Source of the DNA: Roseibium sp. Sym1
GTDB lineage: Bacteria > Pseudomonadota > Alphaproteobacteria > Rhizobiales > Stappiaceae
Direction of reading: 5' to 3'
DNA length: 64,000 bases
NCBI RefSeq assembly: GCF_027359675.1
Contig: NZ_CP114786.1
Location: 2,454,501-2,518,500, forward strand
Part shown: piece after piece, positions 1,265 through 26,484 of the stretch
Layout of the letters: the number at the start of each line of letters is the position of its first letter
Numbering within the stretch: position 1 is the stretch's first letter
Program-made: the position numbers and the translations under genes
Notes under the pieces: generated by a model
The model's database searches: none
Seen by the model: only the letters and a program-made list of their open reading frames with translations
Told to the model about the DNA's origin: nothing

Positions 1265-1834
1265 TCAGGCTGCGAGGACGCCGCTCTGCTTGGCGACATG
1301 GGTCGCGATCGCGTCCATGAGGGGCGGTGAAAGCGAGTCATACGGATGGAGCCCCAGTTCCTCCAGCCGCTGCCGGATTTCGGGCATCTTGTCGGGGCTG
1401 ACGCCGCTTTCAATGACCGAGGACACGAAGGCGGCGAATTCGGGTGGGGACCAGCCCTCGTCGTCGCTGAGTTCCGTGTGAACGAAATCGAGGCCATAGA
1501 AGGGATGCCCGGTGTTCTCGATACGGCCGAACATGTGCACACCGCAGTCCTTGCAGGCGTGGCGCTGGATGGCGGCGTTCGGGTCGACCACCTGAAGCTT
1601 GTCCTCGCCGGAGGTGACCTTCACGCTGTTGCGGTCGACAACGGCGATCTGGGAAAAGATCGCGCCGGCGGGTTTCCAGCATTTCGTGCAGCCGCAAGCG
1701 TGATTGTGAGCCGTCTGGGATCCGACCTCGACGGTGACGGGATCGCTGGCGCAGTGGCATTTCAATGTTCCGCCCGTAAAGCCGGGTTTGGCCGGCGGAA
1801 AGCCATTGTCTATGGCAGGGTGCAATTTGATCAT
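1265..1834 (-). CDS. gfa: S-(hydroxymethyl)glutathione synthase (glutathione-dependent formaldehyde-activating enzyme)
   Basis: The protein is 189 residues, the usual length for Gfa. It has the zinc-binding pattern of the GFA fold: C26 and C28 near the N-terminus, C47, C49 and C52 in [13 protein letters not shown], and a later ACKDCG pair. Gfa promotes the reaction of formaldehyde with glutathione, giving the substrate of the FrmA-type dehydrogenase encoded at 17-18.1 kb. The ATG at 1834 has a good site (GTGGAGGAA). It follows lutF by 116 bp in the same direction, so it may be the last gene of that operon. The pairing with xoxF, frmA and fghA supports a role in methanol-derived formaldehyde disposal. 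Confidence 0.93.
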
Positions 1835-1950
1835 TACGGTTCCTCCACTTTGCCGGTGGCCGTATGCCTTTGACCGGCTTTTTCAAGCATCCAGACAAAG
1901 CAGGACATAGGCAATACAGCGGAAAGTCGCGGTTTTGGGCCTCCCGCAAC

Positions 1951-2745
1951 CTATCCGCCCTTGCGGCGCATCATCATCCGCCCCGGGTCGTATCCCCAGA
2001 AGGAACCGAGCAGGCAGACGAAGAAAGTGACGGCGACCCAGGCGAGCGCGGTGAGGTTGGCCTGTTCGTAAAGGGCAAACCGGATCAGCTCGACGGCATG
2101 GGTAAACGGGTTGACGGCGCATATGTCGCGCAGCAGGGCCGAACTTTCCTGCATCTTCCACAAGGGGTAGAGCGCGGAGGAGAGGAAGAACATCGGAAAG
2201 ATGATGAAATTCATCACCCCGGCGAAATTCTCGAGCTGGCGGATCGTCGAGGAAACCAGAAGACCGAGCGCGCCGAGCATCAGACCCGAAACGATCAGTG
2301 CCGGCAGGACATAGAGATAACCGGCGGCGGGCATCTTAATCCCGAAGAGGGCCGCCAGCAGCAGAAAGACGTAGACCTGCAGCAGTGAAACCGCGGTCCC
2401 GGCCAGCAGCTTGCAGAACAGCAGCCAGCCCCGGGGCAGGGGACTGGTCAGCAACAACCGCATCGACCCCATTTCCCGGTCATAGACCAGCGACAGGGAA
2501 GACTGCATGGCGTTGAAAAGCTGGATCATGCCGCACAGTCCCGGCACGATATAGACCTCGTAGGTGATGTAGGTCTGGTACGGCGGGATGATGGAGAGGC
2601 CCAGGGCGGCGCGGAACCCGGCGGCGAACACCACCAGCCAGACCATCGGACGCACCAGGGCGGCGAAGAAGCGGCTGCGCTGATTGAGAAAGCGCCAGGC
2701 CTCGCGCATCACGATGGCCCGCATGGCGACCAGATACGGCGTCAT
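1951..2745 (-). CDS. lutF: ABC transporter permease of the PQQ-alcohol dehydrogenase/lanthanide system (PedC/LutF type)
   Basis: This 264-residue ABC-2 type permease has about six membrane segments and the signature region YDREMGSMRLLLTSPLPRGW following the second segment. It matches the family annotated as the permease of the PQQ-dependent alcohol dehydrogenase system. In Pseudomonas putida (PedA1A2BC) and Methylorubrum (LutAEF) such systems are needed for lanthanide-dependent growth. Its ATG overlaps the stop of the ATPase gene (ATGA at 2742-2745). The fold is that of exporters, so the direction of transport and the true substrate (metal, chelator complex or other) remain inference. Confidence 0.85.
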   Translation of the reverse strand: MTPYLVAMRAIVMREAWRFLNQRSRFFAALVRPMVWLVVFAAGFRAALGLSIIPPYQTYITYEVYIVPGLCGMIQLFNAMQSSLSLVYDREMGSMRLLLTSPLPRGWLLFCKLLAGTAVSLLQVYVFLLLAALFGIKMPAAGYLYVLPALIVSGLMLGALGLLVSSTIRQLENFAGVMNFIIFPMFFLSSALYPLWKMQESSALLRDICAVNPFTHAVELIRFALYEQANLTALAWVAVTFFVCLLGSFWGYDPGRMMMRRKGG

Positions 2746-3473
2746 CCGATGACCTCTTGCTGTCCGGGAGCGCCGCTGGTGAGCGTGGTGAAGGCGTCGG
2801 CCAGCGTTCCGTCCCGGGCCAGCTCCCCGGCGGTTTCATGGGCCAGCACCTTGCCCCTGTGCAGGATGACGACATCGTCGGCCGGGCGGATTTCGTCGAC
2901 GAGATGGGTTGCCCAGAAGACCAGGAGCCCGCTGTCGGCCAGGTCATGGGCATGGCTGGTGATTGCCGTGCGGCTCGCGGTGTCGAGACCGACGGTCGGC
3001 TCGTCGAGGAGAAGGATGTCCGGTTCGTGGATCAGCGCCCGGGCTATTTCCATCCGGCGCCGGTGCCCGCCATTCAAATCGCGAACCTTTTCACGCGCGC
3101 GCTCGCGCATGTCGAGCCGGTCCAGGACCGCGTCGATCCGCCGTTTCACGGGAGCTCCGGACAGGCCCTGCAGCGCCGCGAAATAGGACAGGTTCCACGA
3201 AACGGACATGTCGAGGTCCAGTGTCGGCTGCTGGAAGACGACGCCGAGCCGGGCGAGCGCCTTGCGTGGTTCGCGGGCAAGGTCGTACCCGGCGATCCGG
3301 ATGCTGCCCTCGGTGCAGACCAGGAGACGGGTCAGCAGGCTGAACAATGTCGATTTGCCCGCTCCATTCGGGCCGAGCAGCGCGCAAAAGCGCCCCGCAT
3401 CCAGCTGGATGCTCACCTTGTCGAGGGCCTTTTTCGCACCGTAGCTGTAGCTGACATCGCGCACCGAGAACAT
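2742..3473 (-). CDS. lutE: ABC transporter ATP-binding protein (PedB/LutE type)
   Basis: The 243-residue ATPase has Walker A GPNGAGKST at about 34-42, a Q-loop (VVFQQPTLD), Walker B DILLLDEPTVGLD and an H-loop (WATHLVDE). The signature is LNGGHRRR rather than the usual LSGGQ, a deviation typical of this PQQ-associated subfamily. I chose ATG 3473 because MFSVRDVSYSYG is the normal N-terminus; a longer frame exists upstream but runs into the neighbouring gene. It pairs with the permease immediately downstream and with the substrate-binding protein at 7524-8747. Confidence 0.88.
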   Translation of the reverse strand: MFSVRDVSYSYGAKKALDKVSIQLDAGRFCALLGPNGAGKSTLFSLLTRLLVCTEGSIRIAGYDLAREPRKALARLGVVFQQPTLDLDMSVSWNLSYFAALQGLSGAPVKRRIDAVLDRLDMRERAREKVRDLNGGHRRRMEIARALIHEPDILLLDEPTVGLDTASRTAITSHAHDLADSGLLVFWATHLVDEIRPADDVVILHRGKVLAHETAGELARDGTLADAFTTLTSGAPGQQEVIG

Positions 3474-3510: not shown

Positions 3511-3942
3511 TTATTCAATGATGATATCCACGCGCTGGCTTTCGCCGGTGCTTCCGGGCTGACGCAGGAAATAGCGTCCCGGCTTGATTGCCAGAAATTC
3601 GATCTCCATCGTTCCGGCGTCGTCGAACTCGACGCTTTCCAGGCCGAAGGGGCGGATCTCAAGTCCGTTCACCACCACTTCGTTGACCCAGATTGCCCGG
3701 AAGAAACCGGAACCTTCAAGGGCGAGTTCGGCGCTGCCGTCGGATACGATCTCGATCTCGTAGACCGTTCCCGACTTGAGCAAAAGCGGGCCCTCCGCGA
3801 TCGGTTTGCCGGAGGACAGCGTGAGTTCCGGCAGTTCTTCCCTGTTGGATTTGGAGAGAATACCCGCAAAACCCAACTCGTGAGCGGCGGCGGGACCTGC
3901 AAGGATTGCAGCGGCCAGTGTACAGATGAGTGTTTTCTTCAT
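3511..3942 (-). CDS. Small secreted protein with cupredoxin-like beta fold, function unknown
   Basis: The 143-residue protein has a signal peptide (MKKTLICTLAAAILAGPAAA) and a mature part starting HELGF. The region FDDAGTMEIEFLAIKPGRYF resembles the C-terminal strands of cupredoxins. The usual copper Cys and Met ligands are absent: the mature chain has no Cys and essentially one His. It overlaps the upstream ATPase gene by 4 bp (ATGA at 3939-3942) and precedes lutE by 37 bp. It therefore sits between two ABC ATPases and is surely co-expressed with both transporters. A periplasmic accessory or small-ligand carrier is plausible. I do not recognise a named family. Confidence 0.75.
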   Translation of the reverse strand: MKKTLICTLAAAILAGPAAAHELGFAGILSKSNREELPELTLSSGKPIAEGPLLLKSGTVYEIEIVSDGSAELALEGSGFFRAIWVNEVVVNGLEIRPFGLESVEFDDAGTMEIEFLAIKPGRYFLRQPGSTGESQRVDIIIE

Positions 3943-4589
3943 TTAACTTCCTCCCGTTGAAACAGCGGCCGCACCACGTTGAGTGGCGTGTCCGTGTCGG
4001 AAACAATGGTTGCGGGGCTACCCGCGAACTCCAGAACGCGGTCGGCCAGCTGTCGCGCCTCGTCCCGTTCATGGGTAACGAACAGGGTTGCCGGTCGCAC
4101 ATCCTTCAGTAGATCCCGGGTCAGGGCAATCATCTGCGCCGCGGTTTTCTCGTCAAGCGAGGCGAACGGTTCGTCGAGGATGAGCAGCTCCGGCCGGCCC
4201 GCGAAGGCCCTGGCCAGGGCGAGGCGCCGCTGCTGGCCGAGGGAGAGCTGCCCGGGATACATCTCGGCCTTCTCGATCAATCCGACCCTGGCCAGGCTCT
4301 CCAGGGCCTGCTGGCGCGACAGGGCGGGATGCACGAGCAACAGGTTGTCGAGGGCATTGCGCCAGGGCAGGAGCGTCGGTTCCTGAAAGACAAAGGCCAG
4401 GGAGGCGGGACGCTCTATGGCGCCGGAGTAATCCGGGTCGATGCCGGCAACCAGGCGCAGCAGCGTCGATTTGCCGATGCCGGACCGGCCGAGAATGGCA
4501 AGGGTTTCTCCAGGCGCGAGGGTGAATTTCACATCCTTCAGGACTTGCGTCTTGCCGAAAGCCTTGGACTTGACGTCGACCCGGATCAT
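3939..4589 (-). CDS. ABC importer ATP-binding protein, NitT/TauT type
   Basis: The 216-residue ATPase has Walker A GRSGIGKST, Q-loop FVFQEPTLLPW, signature LSLGQQRRLALAR, Walker B LLILDEPFASLD and H-loop VTHERDEA. FQEPTLLPW is characteristic of the SsuB/TauB/NrtD group that serves sulfonate, taurine, nitrate and pyrimidine-type importers. ATG 4589 overlaps the permease stop (ATGA, 4586-4589). The 216 residues are short for the group (usually 240-270), the C-terminus being trimmed. It forms a complete importer with the next two genes. Confidence 0.88.
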   Translation of the reverse strand: MIRVDVKSKAFGKTQVLKDVKFTLAPGETLAILGRSGIGKSTLLRLVAGIDPDYSGAIERPASLAFVFQEPTLLPWRNALDNLLLVHPALSRQQALESLARVGLIEKAEMYPGQLSLGQQRRLALARAFAGRPELLILDEPFASLDEKTAAQMIALTRDLLKDVRPATLFVTHERDEARQLADRVLEFAGSPATIVSDTDTPLNVVRPLFQREEVK

Positions 4590-5332
4590 GCGTGCCTCCA
4601 GGCGGTGACGCGCCGCTCGGCCGGCTGTAGCAGCAGCCACTCCACCAGCAGCATGAAGCCGATGAAACTGAGCGAGTAGACCAGCACCATCGTGACGTCG
4701 AACAGCTGGAAATAGAGGTGGATCTGGAAGCCTATGCCGTTTGACCGGCCGAGGAATTCCACCACGAGCACGATCTTCCAGATGACGGCAATCCCCGACC
4801 GCGCGGCCCCGGTGATGAAGGGTGCCAGCTGTGGCAGGATCACGTGCCGCAGATAGACGGATCGCCGCATGCGGTAGACCTGTGCCATGGCCTTCAGTTC
4901 GGGATTGAGCGCCCTGGCGCCTTCGCGGATGATCGTCGTCACATTCGGGATCTTGTTCAGCGTGACCGCGACGATTGCGGCGGTCTCGTTGAGTCCGATC
5001 CAGAGGTAGCACAGCACGATCAGAACGAGGGCGGGCAGGTTGAGAAACACCACCAGCCACGGGTCCAGCCAGCGGTCGATGGCAGGCCTGGTTCCCATGA
5101 CAAGCCCGAGCACCAGGCCGATGCCCATCGCCAGGACGAACGCCGCTATGACCCTCAGAACCGTGATGCCCAGGCTGGAAAGCAGGTCTCCCGACGCCAG
5201 TTCGGACAGGAACGGCTCCACGAGACCTTGCGGCGGCGGCAGAACGCTCGGGTCGCCGGCCAACCTTGCCAGAAGCATCCAGGCCAGCAGAAAGGCGGCC
5301 AGCGAAAGCCCGCGGATGAGCGTGTTTGACAA
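4586..5332 (-). CDS. ABC importer permease, NitT/TauT (SsuC-like) type
   Basis: The 248-residue binding-protein-dependent permease has about six helices and an EAA-like loop around EGARALNPELKAMAQVYRMR, then ILPQLAPFITGAARSGIAVIW. The reading frame begins at a TTG (5332), six bases after the stop of the binding protein; an ATG occurs only after the first membrane segment has begun, so TTG is more likely. The permease would form a homodimer with the neighbouring ATPase. The substrate is unknown. Confidence 0.88.
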   Translation of the reverse strand: MSNTLIRGLSLAAFLLAWMLLARLAGDPSVLPPPQGLVEPFLSELASGDLLSSLGITVLRVIAAFVLAMGIGLVLGLVMGTRPAIDRWLDPWLVVFLNLPALVLIVLCYLWIGLNETAAIVAVTLNKIPNVTTIIREGARALNPELKAMAQVYRMRRSVYLRHVILPQLAPFITGAARSGIAVIWKIVLVVEFLGRSNGIGFQIHLYFQLFDVTMVLVYSLSFIGFMLLVEWLLLQPAERRVTAWRHA

Positions 5333-5338
5333 CGCCGT

Positions 5339-6397
5339 CTACTCGACGTTCGCAAACAGGCCGGTGGGCAGTTCGGTCGCCTCGCCGACAAGCTTGCTGC
5401 CGCCGAGGCGGACCATCAGGGAATAGAACGTTGCCGCGTCATCCACGGCCACATTGCCGGGTGCGGGAATGCCGGCGCGGAAGTCCTGCCGCAGCGTTTC
5501 GAACTGCGCCTCGGACTTGACATTCATCTGGTCGCGCAGGGGTTCCCACGCACTGTCGTCTTCGGCAAGCAGCTCCTTGGCGTTGCGCGAGGCCTGGTAG
5601 AGCGCGTGCGCCATCTGCGGGTTTTCCGCCAGGTAGCTTTCCTTGAGGACATAGCCGAGCAGCGGGATGTCCGGGTTCAGGCCGAGCGCCGTGGACGCGG
5701 TCGACACGGAGATCAGTTCTCGCATGCCGGCGGCCTTCATCTTGGCCAAAAAGTGCCAGAAATTGATGGCCGCATCGGTTTCCCCGTTCAGCGCCGTCTT
5801 GAAGACAAGCGGGGGGGCGCCGAAGACCTGCTCCGTTTCGTCCGCGAGGTCGAAACCGTATTCCTTCTCGCCATAGGCGCGCAGGATCAGCCAGCTCTTG
5901 TCCACAGGGCCGCCCGCGATGCCGATTTTCTTGCCCTTCAGGTCCTGCAGCGTCTGGGCCGGGCTGTCCTTGGGGACCACGACACCGCCGACAGCCTTGG
6001 AATAGGGAATGAACACGTAGTCCTTGCCGGCGGCCCGCTGACGAGCAACCCAGATCCAGTCCGCGACGGCCATGTCGACCTCGCCGCCCTCGAGCGCGAC
6101 CCGCGTGGCACCGTTGTCGGCATAGGGCTGCACCTGGAGTTCGAACCCGTTGGCCTTGTCGAACCCGTTGCGGGTGATGGTGTCGAGTTCCCAGTTGACC
6201 GTGCCGATTTTCAGGACAGCCGCCCTGAGAGTCGGCATGTCCGCTGCCTGGGCCGTTCCCGTGACCGTCAGGCCACCCAGAAGCGTGCCGGCGGCACCCA
6301 GGGCCACTGCGGCAAGGCCCCCGAGAAGAGACCTGCGTGCGTGGAAACGCGCTTTTGCGGACGTGGCGTCCGCCTCGGATACACTGAGGTACTTCAT
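5339..6397 (-). CDS. NitT/TauT-type substrate-binding protein with twin-arginine-like leader
   Basis: The 352-residue periplasmic protein has a long N-terminal leader (about 50 residues) containing ARRSLLGG before a hydrophobic stretch and TAQA cleavage region, which suggests Tat or a long Sec signal. The mature part has the two-lobe binding fold (LRAAVLKIGTVNWELDTI, GGEVDMAVADW, LKGKKIGIAGGPVDKSW). This group binds small organic anions or metabolites such as sulfonates or pyrimidine precursors. ATG 6397 has a strong site (AAGGGAGGAAATC). Its place between a beta-propeller gene and the importer genes ties it to the quinoprotein island. Confidence 0.85.
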   Translation of the reverse strand: MKYLSVSEADATSAKARFHARRSLLGGLAAVALGAAGTLLGGLTVTGTAQAADMPTLRAAVLKIGTVNWELDTITRNGFDKANGFELQVQPYADNGATRVALEGGEVDMAVADWIWVARQRAAGKDYVFIPYSKAVGGVVVPKDSPAQTLQDLKGKKIGIAGGPVDKSWLILRAYGEKEYGFDLADETEQVFGAPPLVFKTALNGETDAAINFWHFLAKMKAAGMRELISVSTASTALGLNPDIPLLGYVLKESYLAENPQMAHALYQASRNAKELLAEDDSAWEPLRDQMNVKSEAQFETLRQDFRAGIPAPGNVAVDDAATFYSLMVRLGGSKLVGEATELPTGLFANVE

Positions 6398-6497: not shown

Positions 6498-7514
6498 TCA
6501 GTCCGGGGTGACGACCACCCCCCATGGCTGCTGGCCGACCTGGACCGACTTGATGGCCTCCTGGGCATCCACATCGATTACGGTCACGTCATTGGAATTG
6601 CCGTTGGTGGTGAGCAGGTATTTTTCGTCCGGTGTGAATTCCAGCTGCCAGACCCGCTGACCGACCAGGATGTAGCGGACCACCTCCCGGCTTTCGACAT
6701 CGATGACGGCGACGCGGTTGGCCGGTCCCAGGGCAACAAAGAGCCACTTGTTGTCCGAAGTGATCCGCATGCCGACCGGCTGAAGCCATTCCGGCAGCAC
6801 ACCCGGCACCTCGAAACCGATCTTTGTTTCCAGTTCCGGCCCGGTTTCCCCGAGCATGTCAATCACGGAGACCGTGCCGCCGATTTCCGAGCTGACGAAA
6901 AGGATGCTGCCGTCCCCGGTAAAGCGGGCGTATCGCGGACGCTGGTCGACCAGCACGTTGTGCTTGATCTTGTAGTCTTCCGTGGCGATGAAATGCGCCA
7001 TGTTCGTGGTTTCGGACGTGTTGACGATGAAGCGCATGTCAGGGCTCACCGCCATGCCTTCGGGTTCCACGCCGACCGGGATCTCGGCGACCACGGTTTT
7101 CTTGACCGTGTCGACCACGGTGACGAGGTTGTCGTCCTCGTTGGAGACGTAGAGCTTGCTGCCGTCCGGGTTCAGGACGAAGAGCTCCGGATCCGGGCCC
7201 GAGGGCAGCGACCAGAGAAACTCGTATGTCTGCGCATCGATAACCTGAATGGTGTCGTCGTCGGACGCGCAAACGTAGAGGTGCTGTCCGTCCGGGCTGA
7301 GCCCGATGCCCCGCGGCCTGTTGCCGACGGCAAACTCGTTGGTCGCCTCCCAGGTCTCGGTGTCGATCACGGTGACGGTGTTGCCTTTTTCGTTGCTGAC
7401 GAATGCCTGGTTTGCCAGGGCGGTTCCTGAAAGCGGGAGCACCGAGGCGGCCAGACCAAGGAAACCGGTCAGGAGACCTGGAATGCGCAACGCCGTTGTG
7501 AAGGGCCGTGTCAT
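6498..7514 (-). CDS. Secreted YVTN-type beta-propeller protein of the PQQ-dependent catabolism cluster
   Basis: The 338-residue protein has a signal peptide (to about ALANQAF) followed by about seven repeats of the form G-Y/F-V-SNE-GNTVTVIDT, e.g. YVSNEDDNLVTVVDT and VFVALGPANRVAVIDVES. This matches the family of PQQ-dependent catabolism-associated beta-propeller proteins. It is periplasmic by its leader. It follows lutA by 9 bp and precedes the NitT-type binding protein, all on one strand. A metal, cofactor or protein-docking role is possible; no enzymatic residues are evident. Confidence 0.87.
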   Translation of the reverse strand: MTRPFTTALRIPGLLTGFLGLAASVLPLSGTALANQAFVSNEKGNTVTVIDTETWEATNEFAVGNRPRGIGLSPDGQHLYVCASDDDTIQVIDAQTYEFLWSLPSGPDPELFVLNPDGSKLYVSNEDDNLVTVVDTVKKTVVAEIPVGVEPEGMAVSPDMRFIVNTSETTNMAHFIATEDYKIKHNVLVDQRPRYARFTGDGSILFVSSEIGGTVSVIDMLGETGPELETKIGFEVPGVLPEWLQPVGMRITSDNKWLFVALGPANRVAVIDVESREVVRYILVGQRVWQLEFTPDEKYLLTTNGNSNDVTVIDVDAQEAIKSVQVGQQPWGVVVTPD

Positions 7515-7523: not shown

Positions 7524-8747
7524 CTAGTTGTCGAAAGCAGTGCAGGCGGATTCAGGCTCATCGAGCCCCATCGTGTCGAGCGGTGACCGCTGGTGGAGAA
7601 AGCCTTCCTGTGGCGACACGCTGACCGTGATCTTGCTGTCCGTCAGAAGAACCGGTTGCCGCAACTGGCCGTTCCACGGCCGGAAAGTGACTTTCTGCCC
7701 CTTGAAGGCGGCCAGTTCGAATTCATCGCTCAGAACATACTCCTTGAGCGACTGCGGCTCCGCACTCGATGTGCGTGTGACCGCCTCGCCAATGACGCGG
7801 GACGCAAGCCAGGCGTTGTAGTCCTCCGGGTGAATATAGCGGCCCGTCAGCTTCTCGAACCGGCGCTGGAACTGGGTTGCGCCCCAGGCCTCGGAGGTCG
7901 GGTCGAAATTGACCGGACGCAGTCCCGCGGAGCCCGCGACCGGGCGGGGCTCCCAGGAATGGAACGGCAGGTAAAGGGCAAAAACATCGCTTTCGTCAGC
8001 CGCCACGATGACATCGTGCTCCGCCGCGTCCTGGGTGAAGACCGGGATCTGGCGCTGAACCAGCACCATGCCGCTGTCGGTGCGCCGCGACCCGCCGGTG
8101 TCTTCGAAGACCCGTTCCTCTACGATCTTCGCACCGAACTTGGCCGCCGACCTCCGATAGGCTTCGCCGAGCTTCTGGTCGTCGGGATTGGACCCTTCGA
8201 TCAGGAACCAGCGGTTCCATTTCTTCCAGACGAGGAACTGCGCGACGGCATCGGCGAGCATCGCCCGGCTCGGGGCGACATGGATGAGGTTTGACCGGCA
8301 TTCGCTGTCGCGCAGCACATCATCCGGCGCGCTCGCGTTGAAGACCAGCGCCTCTTCTCCGGCGGCATCGGCGACGCGCAGGATGTCTTCACCATTCCCC
8401 AGAACCACGAGCAGCCTGTTGCCCTTGCCGATGAGTTCGCGCGCGGCCGCCACCGCGTCATCGGGTGTTACCGCCAGGGTCTCGAGGGAATAGTCGTTGC
8501 CGAGAAAGGATCCGGTCGTCTGGTTGTCCTCGTTGCCAAGCTGGCCGCCGGCGAAGCCGAGGTCGTCCGGCGTCCGATCATAGCGGGACACCGGCGCGAG
8601 CACCGGATAGTCGATCCTGAGAATGCCGACCTTGACCTCAACGGCACCGGCCGGGGAAAACATGCCGGCCACGGCCATGCAACCCGAGAGACAGACCGCG
8701 AACAGTGTGCAGGACCCGCCGATCCTTGACAGAAGGCGTAGCGACAT
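7524..8747 (-). CDS. lutA: ABC substrate-binding protein of the PQQ-alcohol dehydrogenase/lanthanide system (PedA/LutA type)
   Basis: The 407-residue protein has a hydrophobic leader with a possible lipobox-like LSGC near residue 23 and a mature domain starting VEVKVGILRIDYPVLAP. It has the branched-chain-amino-acid-binding-like periplasmic fold (type I), with Asp/Glu-rich stretches such as GGQLGNEDNQTTG and EDTGG. It matches the substrate-binding family of the PQQ-dependent alcohol dehydrogenase ABC system. In characterised relatives this component is required for growth with lanthanides. First gene of a nine-gene minus-strand run, divergent from the operon at 8863. Confidence 0.86.
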   Translation of the reverse strand: MSLRLLSRIGGSCTLFAVCLSGCMAVAGMFSPAGAVEVKVGILRIDYPVLAPVSRYDRTPDDLGFAGGQLGNEDNQTTGSFLGNDYSLETLAVTPDDAVAAARELIGKGNRLLVVLGNGEDILRVADAAGEEALVFNASAPDDVLRDSECRSNLIHVAPSRAMLADAVAQFLVWKKWNRWFLIEGSNPDDQKLGEAYRRSAAKFGAKIVEERVFEDTGGSRRTDSGMVLVQRQIPVFTQDAAEHDVIVAADESDVFALYLPFHSWEPRPVAGSAGLRPVNFDPTSEAWGATQFQRRFEKLTGRYIHPEDYNAWLASRVIGEAVTRTSSAEPQSLKEYVLSDEFELAAFKGQKVTFRPWNGQLRQPVLLTDSKITVSVSPQEGFLHQRSPLDTMGLDEPESACTAFDN

Positions 8748-9363: not shown

Positions 9364-9370
9364 AGACCAC

Positions 9371-16997: not shown

Positions 16998-18110
<1,113 letters not shown>

Positions 18111-19091: not shown

Positions 19092-20129
19092 TTATTCCCA
19101 TTCCAGTTCCGTGAAGGCGGCGGTGGCGTTGCGCGTGTTGAAGAGGTCGAACAGCTCCCATTCGGTCGACTCGCTTTGTGCAATGTGTTCGACGGCCTCT
19201 CCGATCCGCTCGCCGTTCTGCAAGGCTTGCCGTGTGTCGCCTTGCAGTGTGTCCAGATACCGCCGCATCGGTTCCAGGGCCGCCTCAAGCGGAAGCGCCG
19301 GCGCGCCATGTCCCGGAACGATCCTTTCGGCATCCGTTGCCGCCAGCCGGTCGAGGCTGGTGAGCCATCCCGGCAGGGAGCCGTCGAGAGCGGGCAAATG
19401 CCGGTCGAAGACAAGATCACCGGCAAACATCGTGTTCGTCGACCTGTCCACCACCGTGAGGTCCGTCGTCGAATGGGCCGCCGGCCAGGTCTCGATGGAC
19501 AGGACGCGGCCGCCGAGATCTATCTCTCCCGCCGCTTCCCCGGGCCGGACCGGATGCGTTCCCAGAAATCCCTGCGGGCCGATCAGCCGTTCGAACCCGG
19601 TCAGATAGGCGTCCTGCCGGTCACGAAACGCCCGGATGAATCCCGGATGGGCAACGATCGTCGCTCCCGCTTCCGCAAACACGGCGGCACCGAAGACGTG
19701 GTCGGGGTGAATATGGGTCAGGATCACATGGCTTACGGGCAGCGGGCTGAGCGCTCGTATGGCCCGGTAGAGCTCTTCCCCGACCGCCCTGGAGCCGCCG
19801 GTATCGATCACGGCAATCGACGTGTCGCCGACAACGACACCGATGTTGGCGACATCTCCCAGGTTGTCCGGGCCGGGTTCGGCGATCTCGCCGCGGTGGA
19901 CATAAACCCCCGGGGCAACCTGCGTGAGCTTCAGGCCCGGGCCCATCGGGCGGCAGGTGGCGTTGCCTGTGTCCCGTGCATTTGCCGGCACGTTCGTTGC
20001 CGGCAAGGCCAGGCCGGGAAGGAGCGCTTCGCATTCCTCGAGAGACTGACGCTCCATGCCGGGCACGAGCTGTGCGCGGCAGGTATCGGGTTGAGCCAAA
20101 AGGCAGATCATGACGACAAGCTCGAACAT
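19092..20129 (-). CDS. SoxH-like zinc metallohydrolase of the quinoprotein relay (type 2)
   Basis: The 345-residue protein has a short hydrophobic N-terminus (MFELVVMICLLAQPDTC) and a metallo-beta-lactamase domain. Zinc ligands are visible as THIHPDHVFGA (HxHxDH), a later WPAAHSTTDLTV His, the FAGDLVFD Asp and the VPGHGAP His. It resembles SoxH relatives that partner fused SoxYZ-like carriers in PQQ gene clusters, and is indeed divergent from SoxYZ-like copy B, 121 bp away. The reaction is unknown; hydrolysis of a carrier-bound thioester or persulfide is a reasonable idea. ATG 20129 fits the family N-terminus; an ATG at 20171 is possible. Confidence 0.85.
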   Translation of the reverse strand: MFELVVMICLLAQPDTCRAQLVPGMERQSLEECEALLPGLALPATNVPANARDTGNATCRPMGPGLKLTQVAPGVYVHRGEIAEPGPDNLGDVANIGVVVGDTSIAVIDTGGSRAVGEELYRAIRALSPLPVSHVILTHIHPDHVFGAAVFAEAGATIVAHPGFIRAFRDRQDAYLTGFERLIGPQGFLGTHPVRPGEAAGEIDLGGRVLSIETWPAAHSTTDLTVVDRSTNTMFAGDLVFDRHLPALDGSLPGWLTSLDRLAATDAERIVPGHGAPALPLEAALEPMRRYLDTLQGDTRQALQNGERIGEAVEHIAQSESTEWELFDLFNTRNATAAFTELEWE

Positions 20130-20250: not shown

Positions 20251-21126
20251 ATGACCGTTCGCCACATCCTGCAGCCCGCCTGCCGTGCGCTGATCGCGCT
20301 GGCCGTGGCGTTGCCCCCGGCATTGATTGTGCTTCCCGGTCCCGCACGCGCGGCGGGAGACACGGAGACGGGTGACACGGAGACGGGCAACCCGTTGACG
20401 CAGGAGGGCAGCTGGCCCGACTTGCGCGGTGACATCATTGGCGACCGGATGCCTGCGGCAGCGGAGGGCGCGGTGGAGCTGAGCGCGCCCTACCGGGCCC
20501 ATGATGCCGCCACTGTTCCCGTCAGCGTGAAACAGCCCGGGCCCTCCGCCCCGTTGATCGAGAGTGCCATTCTTGTCATCGACGAGAATCCGGCGCCGGT
20601 TGCCGCCGAACTGACATTTGCTCCCGACATGCATCCGCTGGATCTCGAACTCAGGATACGCGTCAACCAGTATTCCAACGTCAGGCTGATCGCGGAAACC
20701 GCGGACGGCGCGTTGATGACAGGCCGTTTCGTCAAGGCGTCAGGCGGCTGTTCCGCGCCGGCGACAAGGGATCCCGAAGTCGCCCTGTCGACCATGGGGG
20801 AGATCCGGGTGAAACACTTCGGGTCTGCCACCGGTGCGCCCGGGTCGCGGCGGGAGGCACAGCTCATGATCCGGCATCCGAACTATTCGGGCTTGCAGCG
20901 CGACCAGGTCACGCAGCTGTTCATTCCCGCCCATTTCGTCAATATCGTCGAGGTGCGGCAGGGCGACGATCTCCTGTTCACCGTCGAGGGCGGCATTTCC
21001 CTGTCTGAAAATCCGGTGATCCGGTTCGCCTATACCGACAATGGCGCGGAGACGCTCCACGTTCACGCGGAGGACACGGACGGCAACGTCTGGGAAAAGA
21101 CCATAGAAAAAGATCCGGCCAGTTGA
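20251..21126 (+). CDS. Quinoprotein dehydrogenase-associated fused SoxYZ-like carrier (copy B)
   Basis: The 291-residue secreted protein (signal to about ARAAG) is a paralogue of 10880-11725. Shared landmarks are SWPDLRGDIIGDRM, ELSAPYRAHDA, VIDENPAPVAAEL and GGISLSENPVI. The carrier Cys lies in KASGGCSAPA, closer to the GGCGG end of SoxY than in copy A. The N-terminus of the mature chain has a small Gly-Asp-Thr-Glu-Thr duplication. Divergent from the SoxH-like hydrolase, which makes that enzyme its most likely partner. Confidence 0.87.
   Translation: MTVRHILQPACRALIALAVALPPALIVLPGPARAAGDTETGDTETGNPLTQEGSWPDLRGDIIGDRMPAAAEGAVELSAPYRAHDAATVPVSVKQPGPSAPLIESAILVIDENPAPVAAELTFAPDMHPLDLELRIRVNQYSNVRLIAETADGALMTGRFVKASGGCSAPATRDPEVALSTMGEIRVKHFGSATGAPGSRREAQLMIRHPNYSGLQRDQVTQLFIPAHFVNIVEVRQGDDLLFTVEGGISLSENPVIRFAYTDNGAETLHVHAEDTDGNVWEKTIEKDPAS
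20356..20385 (+). repeat. In-frame 15-bp tandem duplication in the SoxYZ-like gene
   Basis: Two 15-bp units differing at one base (20356-20370 and 20371-20385) encode a repeated GDTET sequence just after the signal peptide. A coding microrepeat in a linker; it changes linker length without disturbing the fold. Confidence 0.75.
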
Positions 21127-21138: not shown

Positions 21139-21507
21139 TCAGAAGCAGATGATGTCCGCCTCCGCCTGTGCCCTGCGCAGGGTTGCCACCAGTTCCTTTG
21201 CCATGGCCGCGGTCCGGAAAATGGACATCCTTTCACCACCGACCTGTTGCAGAGACAGGACGGTTTCGGCCTCGACGTAATCTTCGTAGGGGACGATGGT
21301 CGCAATCACGTCGATCGAGCAGGAACAGCGCCGGAGGACATCCGCGCTCCGGCCGTTTGACGCCATGCAGCCGAACACGTAGTCGGCCCTGGCCTCCGTC
21401 GGATAATCGTTGAACCGCTGGGCCACGGACTGCCCCATGGCCACTCCCGAGCCAAAGATGAGAAAGGCGATCGGAACGGCGATGGCGCGGGCTGTTTTTT
21501 TGCTCAC
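21139..21507 (-). CDS. Small secreted four-Cys protein, function unknown
   Basis: The 122-residue protein has a hydrophobic leader (AIAVPIAFLIFGSGVAMGQ) and a helical mature part. Cys residues lie at 47 (VFGCMASNG), 61 and 63 (LRRCSCSIDVIA) and 121, next to the C-terminal Phe, a spacing suited to two disulfides. It begins at GTG 21507, whose GTGA overlaps the stop of the upstream gene, with an AGGAG site at a proper distance. Forms a two-gene operon with 21504-22202 and converges on SoxYZ-like copy B. No named family recognised. Confidence 0.78.
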   Translation of the reverse strand: MSKKTARAIAVPIAFLIFGSGVAMGQSVAQRFNDYPTEARADYVFGCMASNGRSADVLRRCSCSIDVIATIVPYEDYVEAETVLSLQQVGGERMSIFRTAAMAKELVATLRRAQAEADIICF

Positions 21508-22202
21508 TCTGTCATCTCCTTCGACCGGAACCGGATCGAGCTGGCATAGACGGGCGTTTGCTCCGCGTCCCCGTCCGTCTTCGGACCGGCCGGGGCCTCT
21601 GCCTGCAGTTGATAATACCACCCCGGTATCTGTTCGGACATTCTGACGGTCAGTTTGAGGTCGCCGAAGCCCTTCATCCGGTCCTTGTTGGGATCGTTGC
21701 GGAAGGGCTGCAGTGTCACGGTCGTGACTTCGATGCTTCCATCGTCGGTTTCCAGGATTTCCTCCCGGACGGGATTGTCCTGCTCAAGCGCAGCCTTGAT
21801 CCTGTTGCGGATATAGTACGGGCTTCCCCCGGCGGTCGTCGCCATATCCCTGACGATCGACTCGACGAAATAGAGGATCAGCGGATTGCCGACCTTTGCG
21901 GGAAAGGAGCCGATCGTGCGGTGCCTTTCGCCCTGACGAAACGTCAGGACGGCCATGTCTTCCGGTGCGAAGTCCAGTCTGACCGTCCCGGTTTCGCGGT
22001 CCGCGATCTGTTCGTTCGCGCGTGCCGAAACCCGGCGCTCGTAGGTAAGGGGCGTTTCCCGCGACAGGCCGTCAAGCGTGCCCGTCCTGAAGAGCAGGTC
22101 GTAGGTGTCCGCGGCCGCCGCCGCCTGAAGCGCCGCAAAAAACAGCAAAGCGGCGACCAAAAGGCCGTTGGCCGCCGGCCCAAGCTTCCGGCATGGCATC
22201 AT
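21504..22202 (-). CDS. Secreted protein of unknown function, partner of the four-Cys protein
   Basis: The 232-residue protein has a signal peptide (LLVAALLFFAALQAAAA) and a beta-rich mature part (DTYDLLFRTGTLDGLSRETP; GTVRLDFAPEDMAVLTFRQG; VTLQPFRNDPNKDRMKGFGD). No Cys in the mature chain, no catalytic motif and no clear family. A double ATG at 22202/22199 follows AAGGAAGGAAG. The next gene starts inside its stop. Location in the quinoprotein island suggests a periplasmic role; this is inference. Confidence 0.75.
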   Translation of the reverse strand: MMPCRKLGPAANGLLVAALLFFAALQAAAAADTYDLLFRTGTLDGLSRETPLTYERRVSARANEQIADRETGTVRLDFAPEDMAVLTFRQGERHRTIGSFPAKVGNPLILYFVESIVRDMATTAGGSPYYIRNRIKAALEQDNPVREEILETDDGSIEVTTVTLQPFRNDPNKDRMKGFGDLKLTVRMSEQIPGWYYQLQAEAPAGPKTDGDAEQTPVYASSIRFRSKEMTE

Positions 22203-22339: not shown

Positions 22340-24586
22340 TCACATGGCCGCCGACCGGCGGGTCTTCCAGTCGACAAGCGGGCGCAGGCGGGACAGTTTC
22401 ACCGGCTTGGTCAGCACGGTGAAGTCATGGCGCCTGCTGTCTTCGGCCAGTTGTTCCTCCGGGCTTGCGGTGATCATGATGGCCGGCACGTGCGTCTTCG
22501 TTTCGTCTCTGACCGCGACGATTGTCCTGATGCCGGTGTCGTCGCCATCGAGCTGGTAGTCCGCCAGAATGATGTCGGGTGCCATGCCGATGTCGCGCAC
22601 CTGGCCGATGGCTTCTTCCGTGGAGGCCGCCGTCAGGACACTGCCGCCCCAGGATTCGATCTTACGTGCTGTCGCGTAGAGAACGTCGGGATTGTTTTCG
22701 ACGATCAGGACGATGAGGTCCATGTCGTCGGCGCGCACCGGAACGGTCTCGGGTTTGCCCCGGTGCTCCTCTGCCGGAGCGCTGACGACGGGCAGCGTGA
22801 TCGAAAAGACCGAGCCCCTGCCCGGGGCCGACCGCAGCGAGACCGGATGTCCCAGCCGTCTGCAGGCACGATCGACGATGGACAGTCCCAGTCCCATGCC
22901 GAAGCCGGAGCGTTCCGGCGAGGCCCGGGTGAACTCGGAAAAGATCCTGTGCTGATCCTTTCGTGAAATGCCGATGCCCGTATCCCAGACCTCCAGCACC
23001 AGGTTGGAGCCCCGGCGGCGGCAGCCGGCAAGCACCCTGCCGCTTTCGGTATACTGGATGGCATTGACGACCAGGTTCTGGATCGACCTCAACAGATAGC
23101 GCTGGTCGCTGGAGACCCAGGCACTGCTGGGGACGATGTCGAGGCGGATGTCCTTTTCCTCCGCCAGTTGCGTGTAGTCCTCCCGGACAGAGGTCAGCAA
23201 CTCGCCGATGCAAAAGGAGCTGACCGACATTTCCGTGCCTGTCGATTCCAGGCGGGATATGTCGAGCAGCGCGTGCAGCAGCGATTCAATCGAGTTGAAC
23301 GAGCGCTCCAGGCGGTTGACGGTGGCGGCCAGCGGCGTTTTCGCGGCGCTGTCGCTCATGGTCGAAATAAGCAGCTTTGCAGCGTTGATGGGCTGCAGCA
23401 GGTCGTGACTTGCCGCCGCGAAGAACTTGGTCTTGGAGGAGACGGCCTCCTCGGCCCGTTCCTTGGCGAGACGCAGCTCCTCGTCGATGAGGGCCTGTTC
23501 CTCATTCTGCTTGCGCAGCCGGTCATTGGCGAGGGTCAGTTCCTGCGTCCGCTCGCGCACCCGCTGCTCCAGGAGCTCCGTTGTCTGGGTCTCCGCGGTT
23601 ATGTCCATCACGTTCATGATGAAGCCCTTGTCGGGCAATCCGTGAACCCGGATATCCAGGATGTCACCGTCGTCGTGACGGAACTTGGTCTCCATTCCCT
23701 GCCCGGCGTGAACCTCGGATATCCATCTGGCGAGCGCGTCCTCCCGCTGGCCGCTGTCCAGGGTCCTGTGCCGCAGGAGAAACTCGAGGATCTGGCCGAA
23801 CGCGGTGCCCTTTCGCACCAGCGACACCGGCAGGCGCAGCAGTTCCTGGAACCGATCGTTGTGAATGAGCAGGGCGCCCTCGGGGGAAAACGTGCAGACA
23901 CCCTGGGTCATGTGATCGAACGCGGCCTGCAGAAACAGGGTCTGTTCATCGATCAGGCGGTTCTTTTCGCGCCGGTTCTGGCGGACGATGCTGGTGATCT
24001 CCGTCGACAGGAGAACGGTCTTGCTGGACGAGGCCGTCTTGTGCGTGATCTGGAACCAGCGGTCGCCGCGCAGGCCGACCACGGAGGGATAGGGCGTCTC
24101 GACGCCATTGCGGGAGCGCACGGATCTCCGGTTCGCGCCGTTCTCGGTCGTCGCCCGGGAGACGACATGCTTGCTCAGCCTGAGAGCCTTGAAGTAGTCG
24201 CTGATGTCGAGCCCGGCGATGACTTTCCCGGCCATGTCGGGAATCATCACCCGGAACTGGTCGTTGCAGATTTCCAGGGTGCCTTCGGTGAAAAGGGCGA
24301 AGCCGCCCTCCATGCTGTCCAGCGCGTCGGCCAGGTTGCGCTCGGTCTGCTCGCGCGCATATTCGGCGATCTTGAGCTGGTTGCTGGCCCTGCCGAGCGT
24401 ATCAAGCGCCTGTTCCAGGTCCCGCGTCTTTTCCCAGACCTCTCCTTGCAGGGCGATTGCCGACTGGAACAGGGAATAGGCGCTGTCGCCGACATCGTGT
24501 TCCCGGCTGGCACGCTTCATGAGCGCCGCTATGATTTTTTCCTGGCGCCTGACCTGGTCTTCAAGGGGTTCGCTCGGGTCGATCAA
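22340..24586 (-). CDS. PAS hybrid sensor histidine kinase with C-terminal receiver (NahK/ErcS'-like)
   Basis: The 748-residue cytoplasmic kinase has no membrane segment. Order: N-terminal helical part, PAS-like segments (about 110-190 and 235-345), coiled coil (RVRERTQELTLANDRLRKQN), HisKA with FFAAASHDLLQPINAAKLL, HATPase (NLVVNAIQYTESGR, WDTGIGIS, GFGMGLGLSIV) and a receiver (DIILADYQLDG). The HDLLQPINA box is typical of this family, whose members control PQQ alcohol oxidation in Pseudomonas. It starts at TTG 24586, overlapping the FIST gene stop (TTGA), with AAAGGAGG 10 bases ahead. It should signal to the response regulator at 25762. Confidence 0.87.
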   Translation of the reverse strand: MIDPSEPLEDQVRRQEKIIAALMKRASREHDVGDSAYSLFQSAIALQGEVWEKTRDLEQALDTLGRASNQLKIAEYAREQTERNLADALDSMEGGFALFTEGTLEICNDQFRVMIPDMAGKVIAGLDISDYFKALRLSKHVVSRATTENGANRRSVRSRNGVETPYPSVVGLRGDRWFQITHKTASSSKTVLLSTEITSIVRQNRREKNRLIDEQTLFLQAAFDHMTQGVCTFSPEGALLIHNDRFQELLRLPVSLVRKGTAFGQILEFLLRHRTLDSGQREDALARWISEVHAGQGMETKFRHDDGDILDIRVHGLPDKGFIMNVMDITAETQTTELLEQRVRERTQELTLANDRLRKQNEEQALIDEELRLAKERAEEAVSSKTKFFAAASHDLLQPINAAKLLISTMSDSAAKTPLAATVNRLERSFNSIESLLHALLDISRLESTGTEMSVSSFCIGELLTSVREDYTQLAEEKDIRLDIVPSSAWVSSDQRYLLRSIQNLVVNAIQYTESGRVLAGCRRRGSNLVLEVWDTGIGISRKDQHRIFSEFTRASPERSGFGMGLGLSIVDRACRRLGHPVSLRSAPGRGSVFSITLPVVSAPAEEHRGKPETVPVRADDMDLIVLIVENNPDVLYATARKIESWGGSVLTAASTEEAIGQVRDIGMAPDIILADYQLDGDDTGIRTIVAVRDETKTHVPAIMITASPEEQLAEDSRRHDFTVLTKPVKLSRLRPLVDWKTRRSAAM

Positions 24587-25752
24587 AACAGGGTTTCCTC
24601 CTTTGGAGGAAAGAACGCGACGCCGACGAATGTCTGGTTCACATGAACACCCAGATGTTGCTCGCCATAGGTGTTGAAACCGAAGACGTGATGCTTGCAC
24701 AGCACACCCGAGGCATCCTCGACCAGGTTGTTCTGCTCGATCTCGAGACGGCGCAGGTAGCAGTCGAAGCCGAGAATGAAGTCGGGATCCTCGCCCACGC
24801 CGGCCCCGCAGTCGAGACCCGCCTCCAGTGTTTTCAGGATTTCGGTACCCTGCCCGAGAGTGAGCACAAGGCCGTCATCGATTGCCGAAAGAAACCAGAG
24901 CCCGTCATCGTCGGCAACCTGCTGGATGGCGCGCACGTGCCAGCTCTTTCCGTTGCGCACGAGAACCGGATTGTCGGCGAAGACCTTCGGACACAGGTCC
25001 TTCACGCTGCATCCGATGTAGCGGGCATATTCCCGGGCCGCAGGAACGCCGTTGATTTCCAGCACCAGCCGCTCTTCCGGTATGGCCTTGGTGACCACCA
25101 TGCGCTTGTCCGTCGGCAGGAAATGGTCAAACCCGAGCGCCCGAAAATCAAGATCCGTTTCCAGGAGAACGAGCAGTGCCGCATCGCTGTGTGCCCTGCC
25201 GCCGTGGAGCACGAATGTCTCATCGAAGGCGAGCCCGTGCCCGGCCGAGCCGCCGAACACAGGGACATCGCCCAGACCCGCGTTCAGCGCCGCGACGAGG
25301 AGATCTTCCTGCTTGGAAAGGCCGTCCGCGAAAACGAGGGCGACGCGCTTCCAGTTTGCCGAACGCGGAAAACGCGACGCCAACATCTCGGCCTGGGCCG
25401 CGATGCCCTCGATGGCGACGGGTCTGAGCGGCTTGAGCAGCGTGGACGAGCATCGGAAGTGCCGCTTGGGAAACGCGATGACCAGCAGGGCATCGTTCTC
25501 GTAACCTTCCGGGGTGATCTGGCCAGCGGTCGAACAGCCGAAGGCCGTCGCCGACGGCATGACCTCGGCCATGATGCGGGCGACGGTGTCGCTGTCCAGG
25601 TGATCCGGCACGAAGACCAGCAGGAAGCACGTCGCGTGCAGCCTCAGGTCCGTCGTGGCTTCCCTGACGGCGGTCTCGGGCGAACGCGCATGGGAAACCC
25701 CGACCTGCACCGTGAGCGGCTGTCCGGTCTTGTGGGAATGCCGTATGTTCAT
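24583..25752 (-). CDS. FIST-domain sensory protein
   Basis: The 389-residue soluble protein has FIST_N (VGVSHARSPETAVREATTDL; AFGCSTAGQITPEGYENDAL; PVFGGSAGHGLAFD) and FIST_C (VLEINGVPAAREYARYIG, VLTLGQGTEIL) domains. It also has a C-terminal EDPDFILGFDCYLRRLEIEQ segment with conserved Cys. FIST proteins are thought to bind small ligands and feed two-component systems. ATG 25752 lies 9 bp after the response regulator gene; the gene overlaps the kinase start. The order regulator-FIST-kinase is one transcript. The ligand is unknown. Confidence 0.9.
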   Translation of the reverse strand: MNIRHSHKTGQPLTVQVGVSHARSPETAVREATTDLRLHATCFLLVFVPDHLDSDTVARIMAEVMPSATAFGCSTAGQITPEGYENDALLVIAFPKRHFRCSSTLLKPLRPVAIEGIAAQAEMLASRFPRSANWKRVALVFADGLSKQEDLLVAALNAGLGDVPVFGGSAGHGLAFDETFVLHGGRAHSDAALLVLLETDLDFRALGFDHFLPTDKRMVVTKAIPEERLVLEINGVPAAREYARYIGCSVKDLCPKVFADNPVLVRNGKSWHVRAIQQVADDDGLWFLSAIDDGLVLTLGQGTEILKTLEAGLDCGAGVGEDPDFILGFDCYLRRLEIEQNNLVEDASGVLCKHHVFGFNTYGEQHLGVHVNQTFVGVAFFPPKEETLF

Positions 25753-25761
25753 CGTCAACGC

Positions 25762-26484
25762 CTAGCTCAGCAAGGCCCTGGTGTCGCCTTCGGAAAGATG
25801 AGCCCGCCCGTCCAGGCTGGCGCTCTTGACCAGAAGCGCAGCCTGGGTCCGGTTGTTCACTCCGAGCCGCCGCAAGAGCGCGGTTATATGCGCCTTCACG
25901 GTTGCCTCGGCGAGCGAAAGCTCATAGGCGATCTGCTTGTTCGGCTTGCCCGCGCAGATCAGTTTCATGATCCGGTTCTGCTGGGGCGTCAGGTCCGCGA
26001 TCTTGTGTGCGATCTGCTGAACGCTGAGGTCGGCCCGGCTCGCCCGTTTCGGCGGCGTGTAGCCAGGGGGCAGAAACCGGCGCCCGTCCCGGATGTCCAG
26101 AAGCGCCTGTTGCAGCACCTTGTGCGAGGCATCCTTTGGAATGAAACCGGCTGCACCGGACGACATGAGTATGCTGATCGTCTCGTCCGACGTTTCGGCC
26201 GAGATGACCAGGACCGGTACGTCCGGCAGGCGGTCCTTGACCTTCAGAAAGCCGCTGAGGCCGGTCACGTCCGGCAACTTGAGATCCAGCATCACCAGGT
26301 CCGGCTGGAACCGGGGCCCAACCAGGCGCAGGCCTGCCTTCAATGAGGTCGCTTTCTTGACTGAATTGGAGTCGAAGTGTTTTTCGAGTGTCGCAGCAAG
26401 CGCATCGCAATAAAGCGGGTGGTCATCGATCACGAGGATCGAATTGATAACCACGTGTTCCTGCGGACAGCATTTCTTGCTCAT
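25762..26484 (-). CDS. LuxR/NarL-type response regulator
   Basis: The 240-residue protein has an N-terminal receiver (SILVIDDHPLYCDALAA; phospho-Asp in LVMLDLKLPDVTG; conserved Lys in GFIPKDAS) and a C-terminal LuxR-type HTH (LTPQQNRIMKLICAGKPNKQ; AEATVKAHITALLRRLGVNN). A short N-terminal extension contains two adjacent Cys (MSKKCCPQ). ATG 26484 has GGGAGGAGG ahead. It is the first gene of the regulator-FIST-kinase operon and resembles ErdR-type regulators of alcohol oxidation. Control of xoxF or the lut-like operon is plausible but not shown by sequence. Confidence 0.9.
   Translation of the reverse strand: MSKKCCPQEHVVINSILVIDDHPLYCDALAATLEKHFDSNSVKKATSLKAGLRLVGPRFQPDLVMLDLKLPDVTGLSGFLKVKDRLPDVPVLVISAETSDETISILMSSGAAGFIPKDASHKVLQQALLDIRDGRRFLPPGYTPPKRASRADLSVQQIAHKIADLTPQQNRIMKLICAGKPNKQIAYELSLAEATVKAHITALLRRLGVNNRTQAALLVKSASLDGRAHLSEGDTRALLS

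Follow-up and report, generated by a model that had tools for sequence, protein, structure and literature searches.

Which genes serve the lanthanide-dependent methanol dehydrogenase XoxF itself, and which only accompany it, is the question raised by a 25-kb island in the 7.26-Mb genome of Roseibium sp. Sym1. The island spans positions 1265-26484 of a 64,000-nucleotide stretch of contig NZ_CP114786.1, hereafter the window, to which coordinates refer. A preliminary description had gathered here XoxF with its cytochrome, a Ped/Lut-type ATP-binding cassette (ABC) transporter, Sox-like proteins, glutathione-linked formaldehyde genes and regulators; all parts that it named were located, most of them above curated cut-offs. 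The gene set is not a chance gathering, because most of its order recurs in other families. It is an XoxF5-type methanol-oxidation island of an already known kind, found in soil and sea bacteria and ordinary for XoxF5 bacteria. The gene that tracks XoxF most closely, at 21139-21507, had been passed over. We consider it probable that in this methanol island a homologue of Orf6 from Methylorubrum (M. extorquens) most likely serves as a dedicated periplasmic accessory factor of XoxF5, and that the Sox-like proteins form a thiol relay tied to enzymes that use pyrroloquinoline quinone (PQQ). The genes at the center of this reading are the following.

12376-13383, minus strand: XoxJ (TIGR03871, 292.6 bits, cut-off 212.15)
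13298-13879, minus strand: XoxG cytochrome (TIGR03874, 253.4 bits, cut-off 161.75)
13984-15783, minus strand: XoxF, XoxF5-like (TIGR03075, 791.3 bits; motif DEWDYDG)
21139-21507, minus strand: four-cysteine helical secreted protein, putative Orf6 family (no curated family; co-occurrence with XoxF5; synteny with orf6)
21504-22199, minus strand: secreted beta-rich protein, putative Orf7 family (no curated family; adjoins pqqE and the Orf6-type gene in loci L191-L193 and L195 of other genomes)

The XoxF sequence contains DEWDYDG, whose D-x-D belongs to the metal site and is a mark of the lanthanide type, and CCDTVNRG with its adjacent cysteines. It shares 84% identity with Ruegeria and Sagittula records annotated XoxF5. 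We use XoxF5 as a working class, defined by at least 60% identity to the island XoxF. Matches below this value were excluded (4 of 44 genomes in the draw from the order, 1 of 19 in that from the class and 4 of 30 in that from the phylum). The three draws overlap, their union counts each genome once, and the searches scored a limited number of first-look candidates.

At E 0.001, 7412 relatives were found for the 122-residue protein encoded at 21139-21507, with a Pfam domain on none of the 120 matches listed; neither this protein nor the one at 21504-22199 matched a Pfam or NCBIfam family significantly. Its profile detected 40 of the 150 genomes of the order, and these are identical to the 40 with XoxF5 (Fisher p 2e-37, kinship ignored). 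They include G125, a genome with XoxF5 and no SoxYZ, in which the Orf6-type gene lies about 0.3 kb from xoxF. Thirteen families hold both members with XoxF5 and the Orf6-type gene and members with neither. Among 289 genomes of the class, XoxF5 occurred in 18, the Orf6-type gene in 17 and both in 16; for 249 genomes of the phylum the counts were 26, 27 and 26, four of the last lying outside the class. The union comprises 71 genomes with XoxF5, 71 with the Orf6-type gene and 69 with both, leaving four mismatches. G270 has a partial Orf6-type gene at a contig start and G616 a partial XoxF at a contig end; in G156 the contig starts inside the SoxYZ gene next to XoxF, at the place that holds the Orf6-type gene in the congener G351, so that this case is not judgeable. 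The distribution suggests that this small unnamed protein, not the Sox-like genes, is inherited almost in lockstep with XoxF5.

All 60 Orf6-type proteins from the loci compared, including four from outside the class, share four invariant cysteines and an invariant aspartate. The predicted structure is entirely helical (pLDDT 82.6, pTM 0.66). One relative (P0280) carries an HdeA/HdeB label; no HdeA family matched at E 1 in 41 members. In 37 of 58 loci an Orf7-type gene lies within 2.5 kb of the Orf6-type one, and in 21 it is absent there; these counts come from a non-random sample, as part of the later loci were picked for an apparent separation or discordance of XoxF and the Orf6-type gene.

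The link to genetics comes from M. extorquens AM1, in which the reported order is xoxF1 (1740), xoxG, xoxJ, orf6 (1746), orf7 (1747), pqqE (1748), pqqCD and pqqB (cited sections of PMC7391723). The loci L191, L193 and L195 have the order xoxF, xoxG, xoxJ, Orf6-type gene, Orf7-type gene, pqqE, pqqD, pqqC, pqqB, and the part from the Orf6-type gene to pqqE is also present in L192, L209 and L210. Named relatives of the L191 Orf6-type protein are mostly from Methylobacterium. Homologues of the Roseibium protein in L191, L193 and L195 thus stand between xoxFGJ and orf7-pqqE; the window copy adjoins the second SoxYZ gene instead. Synteny in Methylobacterium-like genomes, together with membership of the same families, points to an Orf6 homologue at 21139-21507 and a protein of Orf7 type at 21504-22199. 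On methanol with La, the AM1 wild type grew at 0.16 per h and the orf6 mutant at 0.03, the orf7 mutant at 0.08 after a 9-h lag, the xoxG and xoxJ mutants at 0.04, and the mutant in the MxaD homologue at 0.11; orf6, orf7 and the MxaD homologue were needed only when La was supplied (PMC7391723, same sections).

The Sox-like proteins show a looser distribution. Four genes encode them and the associated rhodanese.

10880-11725, plus strand: fused SoxYZ-like carrier 1, linker Cys150 (TIGR04557, 169.0 bits, cut-off 140; PF13501 and PF08770)
11762-12379, minus strand: CXXCW rhodanese-like protein (TIGR03865, 228.5 bits, cut-off 128.05)
19092-20129, minus strand: SoxH-like metallohydrolase, type 2 (TIGR04559, 363.2 bits, cut-off 280)
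20251-21126, plus strand: fused SoxYZ-like carrier 2, linker Cys167 (TIGR04557, 273.6 bits, cut-off 140)

Both the fused SoxYZ (TIGR04557) and the SoxH-like models of the quinoprotein relay were matched above cut-off, and NCBIfam names the hydrolase (TIGR04559) "quinoprotein relay system". The carriers stay under the cut-offs of the models for thiosulfate-oxidising Sox proteins (SoxY TIGR04488, 43-48 bits, cut-off 125; SoxZ TIGR04490, 38-56 bits, cut-off 76). SoxYZ-like, SoxH-like and rhodanese genes have been described as associated with quinoprotein dehydrogenases (cited parts of PMC12997753), an association also remarked in Hyphomicrobium (PMC11582611, in part).

In the 150 genomes of the order, SoxYZ was counted only if fused: 51 genomes exceeded the TIGR04557 cut-off, and five were set aside for a stop within the match, indicating split SoxY and SoxZ, leaving 46. 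A PQQ alcohol dehydrogenase, called at E 1e-100, is present in 58 genomes, among them all 46, so that fused SoxYZ occurs only with a PQQ enzyme, and 12 of the 58 lack it. Type-2 SoxH-like hydrolases occur in 45 genomes, all with fused SoxYZ, and PedC in 52, overlapping with fused SoxYZ in 45. Fused SoxYZ is present in 39 of the 40 XoxF5 genomes. The claim that the Sox-like proteins work with XoxF stands as co-inheritance only, and the association had already been published. Among the SoxYZ genomes without XoxF5, G028, G069, G100 and G127 encode another lanthanide-type XoxF-like enzyme (43-45% identity), G128 a pair of lanthanide-type enzymes of other kinds (one of them ExaF-like), and G112 an MxaF-like enzyme, a Ca-type enzyme and one enzyme without the motif.

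We picked 60 SoxYZ loci from the best SoxYZ matches, so that adjacency counts describe a non-random sample. Of 45 type-2 SoxH-like genes, 36 have fused SoxYZ and 29 have XoxF5 within 10 kb. Lower-scoring, type-1-like SoxH-like matches adjoin fused SoxYZ in 8 of 29 cases, and the neighboring dehydrogenase is an ExaF-like enzyme of lanthanide type at six of these eight places and a Ca-type enzyme at one, the last having none within 10 kb. The hydrolase subtype thus seems paired with the dehydrogenase subtype, type 2 near XoxF and the lower-scoring kind near ExaF-like enzymes (L044-L103). All 69 fused SoxYZ proteins keep the linker cysteine, which is the one cysteine in the mature chain of each window carrier; the metal ligands of the SoxH-like hydrolase are kept in 39 of 39 proteins, and all 34 rhodanese-like proteins retain the CXXCW residues. 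Elsewhere in the host genome, a place with split SoxY and SoxZ (G000:C1:2995421-2996062, L043) indicates that a separate sulfur-oxidation system may exist.

Lanthanide uptake and regulation form another layer of the island.

1951-2745, minus strand: PedC/LutF-type ABC permease (TIGR03861, 427.5 bits, cut-off 241.35)
2742-3473, minus strand: PedB/LutE-type ATPase, start picked by hand (TIGR03864, 333.3 bits, cut-off 302.25)
3511-3942, minus strand: secreted 143-residue protein, LutC-like by position (no Pfam family; profile matches between LutB and LutE in L211 and L214)
6498-7514, minus strand: PedA2/LutB beta-propeller (TIGR03866, 497.7 bits, cut-off 287.3)
7524-8747, minus strand: PedA1/LutA substrate-binding protein (TIGR03863, 479.6 bits, cut-off 413.6)
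18274-18909, plus strand: secreted 211-residue protein, LutG-like by position (profile match directly after LutF in L211 and L214)
22340-24700, minus strand: NahK/ErcS'-like hybrid histidine kinase (NF041831, 414.7 bits, under cut-off 1500; Pfam PAS, HisKA, HATPase and receiver)
24583-25758, minus strand: NosP-like FIST protein (NF041558, 344.5 bits, under cut-off 450; PF08495)
25762-26484, minus strand: ErdR-like LuxR-type response regulator (NF041830, 153.6 bits, under cut-off 390; PF00072 and PF00196)

All four subunit families of the PedA1A2BC/LutABEF system are present together above cut-off (TIGR03863, TIGR03866, TIGR03864 and TIGR03861), and lanthanide transport by the Lut system has been published for M. 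extorquens (PMC7391723, cited sections). The pairing of a lanthanide-type XoxF with a Ped/Lut transporter, as previously proposed, is backed by family scores, the D-x-D motif and published genetics. In L211 and L214, homologues of the LutC-like and LutG-like proteins stand between LutB and LutE and after LutF, respectively, the latter followed by an open reading frame (ORF) of 816 or 846 residues. PedB and PedC (1951-3473) also match the DrrA/DrrB drug-export families far under cut-off, which is odd for a metal importer. The kinase (NahK), FIST protein (NosP) and regulator (ErdR) each fall under their best NCBIfam cut-off. In Paracoccus denitrificans, FlhS/FlhR is reported to control the glutathione formaldehyde genes (PMC8879981, in part).

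A second region of the host genome, at 3277-3296 kb (G000:C1:3277000-3296000, L042), helps to separate these layers. It is a lanthanide-type PQQ dehydrogenase island whose PedA1, PedA2, PedB and PedC share 46, 54, 64 and 75% identity with the first-island set, and whose 621-residue dehydrogenase has REGWDFDG, of the lanthanide type, adjacent cysteines in CCDVINR, and 36% identity to XoxF. It also contains an NMT1-type protein with an ATPase and, read by eye, a binding protein and a cytochrome. The second island has its own NosP-like, kinase and regulator genes, paralogous to the first-island trio; the trio described as dedicated is present in the first island but is not special to XoxF. SoxYZ, SoxH, CXXCW and Orf6-type proteins found no match in its 19 kb at E 1e-4. 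Because of this gene content, the transporter and regulators appear to follow lanthanide-type PQQ enzymes generally, and the Sox-like and Orf6-type genes here to follow XoxF.

Gene content, the motif, co-inheritance, synteny and the invariant residues are established here; we infer the roles of the proteins and any physical contact between them. In the periplasm, XoxF would use lanthanide and PQQ to oxidise methanol and would hand the electrons to XoxG; Gfa, FlhA and FghA would remove formaldehyde, the Ped/Lut-type system would move lanthanides inward, and the NosP/kinase/regulator set would exert control. The Orf6-type protein may act on XoxF5 or XoxG, through folding, disulfide formation, insertion of metal or cofactor, or docking of XoxG, with the Orf7-type protein as its putative helper. 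The SoxYZ linker cysteine, the SoxH-like hydrolase and the CXXCW protein would together form a thiol-based accessory relay for PQQ alcohol dehydrogenases rather than a part of metal uptake. We give an even chance to a wider version, in which the Orf6 family would be a fourth core member beside XoxF5, XoxG and XoxJ, an assembly or metallation factor kept almost without exception by XoxF5 Proteobacteria, and the Sox-like relay a second, dispensable layer with its hydrolase subtype paired to the dehydrogenase subtype.

Several points weigh against this interpretation. The working class XoxF5 is defined by identity, not by phylogeny, relatedness of the genomes inflates the co-occurrence with the Orf6-type gene, and G259, the fourth mismatch, has Orf6-type and Orf7-type genes with no XoxF found and is unexplained. 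The Orf6 model gave no clear relative and no confident fold match in the PDB, and the names Orf6 and Orf7 derive from gene order and family membership, not from AM1 sequence. For the relay, G125 has XoxF5 without SoxYZ, 7 of the 46 SoxYZ genomes are without XoxF5, one of them (G027) with a Ca-type enzyme alone and no PedC, and randomly barcoded transposon sequencing (RB-TnSeq) of P. putida without lanthanides gave minimal effects (cited parts of PMC12997753). That the Orf6-type protein is instead required for sensing or for expression, and not for the enzyme itself, is doubtful: its loss would silence xoxF and give the same La-only growth defect, but the gene stays with XoxF5 across families whose gene surroundings differ strongly, and also in genomes that measure about 1.4 Mb.

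For the Sox-like proteins, a maturation or protection role for PQQ dehydrogenases, by forming the disulfide of the adjacent-cysteine ring or shielding PQQ from sulfur nucleophiles, has been proposed in section 15 of a review (PMC12997753). We regard it as a serious possibility, somewhat short of an even chance, as SoxYZ always accompanies a PQQ enzyme (46 of 46), XoxF carries adjacent cysteines and the invariant CXXCW and linker cysteines fit thiol chemistry, whereas the second-island enzyme has the cysteines without a relay and 12 PQQ-enzyme genomes do without fused SoxYZ. Our own proposal of a putative periplasmic aldehyde carrier, holding formaldehyde or its oxidised form on the linker cysteine for release by the SoxH-like hydrolase, as glutathione does in the cytoplasm, would agree with the single cysteine, the intact metal ligands and the neighborhood of both hydrolase subtypes to ExaF-like enzymes (6/8) or XoxF (29/45); it is unlikely given G125 and the ExaF-only genomes, which manage without SoxYZ. 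A role in handling lanthanide or another metal with the Lut system, the alternative offered by the preliminary description, is disfavoured and, we think, quite improbable. The genes share an island and PedC is found in 45 of 46 SoxYZ genomes, but the second island has the full PedA1A2BC without Sox-like matches, seven PedC genomes are without SoxYZ (G040, G041 and G134 with PedC and an ExaF-like enzyme), and G027 has SoxYZ without PedC; the second island and the ExaF-only genomes led us to set this role aside as first choice. To judge by the title of a 2018 study by Pyne, Sox and Xox proteins of Advenella reportedly act on tetrathionate. A joint oxidation of a sulfur compound would agree with that title and with the split SoxY/SoxZ place elsewhere in the genome, but it appears very improbable here: the island encodes glutathione-linked formaldehyde removal and the Lut transporter, those of its proteins that were scanned included no curated Sox oxidation enzyme, and the same island of Sinorhizobium meliloti supports growth on methanol (PMC12628762, in part).

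The remaining genes of the island are these.

1265-1834, minus strand: Gfa, S-(hydroxymethyl)glutathione synthase (TIGR02820, 334.9 bits, cut-off 234.55)
3939-6397, minus strand: second ABC importer (best NCBIfam matches of sulfonate/taurine type, all under cut-off), with ATPase (3939-4589), permease (4586-5332) and NMT1-type binding protein (5339-6397, PF09084), all minus strand
8857-9363, plus strand: DUF3280 secreted protein (PF11684, 147.4 bits)
9371-9916, plus strand: SRPBCC protein, MxaD-like (PF10604, 113.4 bits)
9885-10907, plus strand: second secreted propeller (TIGR02276 repeats; TIGR03866 under cut-off)
16104-16988, minus strand: FghA, S-formylglutathione hydrolase (TIGR02821, 428 bits, cut-off 281.7)
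16998-18110, minus strand: FlhA, glutathione-dependent formaldehyde dehydrogenase (TIGR02818, 600.3 bits, cut-off 543.95)

NCBIfam cut-offs were exceeded by Gfa, PedC, PedB, PedA2, PedA1, both SoxYZ carriers, the CXXCW rhodanese, XoxJ, XoxG, XoxF, FghA, FlhA and the SoxH-like hydrolase, and Pfam cut-offs by the SRPBCC (PF10604) and FIST (PF08495) proteins; the second propeller exceeded that of the repeat model alone. The second importer, the DUF3280, LutC-like and LutG-like proteins and the two unannotated secreted proteins (21139-21507 and 21504-22199) were new relative to the preliminary description. An importer of the type at 3939-6397 recurs beside XoxF in several families (L191, L184, L203, L177), Methylobacterium-like genomes included. 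The reported lack of a TonB receptor and of lanmodulin agrees with our scans: no TonB match was obtained with ten long ORFs on the right side of the island, and a search of six frames with one EF-hand pattern found nothing. In the 20 kb that precede the window (L041), the translations, read by eye, included copper, multicopper-oxidase and cytochrome genes and no C1 gene. About 277 kb from the island there is a homologue of pqqC (51% identity), and a RamB/ScfR-like regulator at 26745-28223 adjoins the island (Pfam ScfRs 205.5 bits; RamB under cut-off). Four sampled members of the host's family (G038, G075, G105, G132) are without a match to PQQ alcohol dehydrogenase, PedC, XoxF or the Orf6-type protein, and both islands may therefore have been acquired by transfer.

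Searching plasmid records with SoxYZ-2 by tblastn gave 109 records, 71 of them Sinorhizobium. The pSymB of S. meliloti ml28 (CP140934) has Gfa, both ABC systems, LutA/LutB, DUF3280, CXXCW, XoxJGF, FghA, FlhA, SoxH-like, SoxYZ-2, Orf6-type, Orf7-type, kinase, FIST and regulator genes in the same order; unlike the Roseibium island, it lacks SRPBCC, the second propeller and SoxYZ-1, a cytochrome separates its xoxF from fghA, and Calvin-cycle genes lie alongside. When La is present, strain 2011 of S. meliloti grows on methanol via XoxF, and its 28.5-kb pSymB region is described as carrying XoxF, glutathione-pathway, lanthanide-uptake, Calvin-cycle and PQQ genes with no obvious lutH (cited parts of PMC12628762). 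Plasmid islands of Ruegeria sp. AD91A and Sagittula sp. MA-2 share the core order, SRPBCC, the second propeller and both SoxYZ, with xoxF annotated XoxF5; no island-type Gfa or PedB/PedC is present in the Ruegeria stretch, which has pqq genes alongside, and the Sagittula stretch starts where its record does and covers the right part of the island alone. The ped cluster of P. putida KT2440 has PedA1A2BC, SoxYZ-like PP_2677, SoxH-like PP_2678, rhodanese PP_2666, a NosP-like protein and the kinase PedS1, but ethanol-type PedE/PedH replace XoxF, SoxYZ/SoxH adjoin pedH, and the table rows listed include no Orf6-type gene (PMC12997753). AM1 shares XoxF, XoxG, XoxJ, orf6, orf7, the MxaD homologue and LutA, B, E and F, its LutC and LutG being likened to the island proteins by position; it differs in spreading these genes over a larger region with lutH and lanmodulin (cited sections of PMC7391723). 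Its relay genes META1p1703-1705 lie apart (PMC12997753, in part) and are not among the rows listed from Table 1 of the transposon screen (PMC7391723).

Many bacteria of soil and sea, and many that live with plants, oxidise methanol through XoxF-type enzymes. The present comparison separates three layers that are usually lumped, namely the XoxF5 core (XoxG, XoxJ and the Orf6 family), Lut/Ped uptake and the Sox-like relay, and this separation lets the function of the relay be tested layer by layer. If the Orf6-type protein is truly so tightly bound to XoxF5, it would belong in every heterologous expression of XoxF5 and would provide a clear genetic marker.

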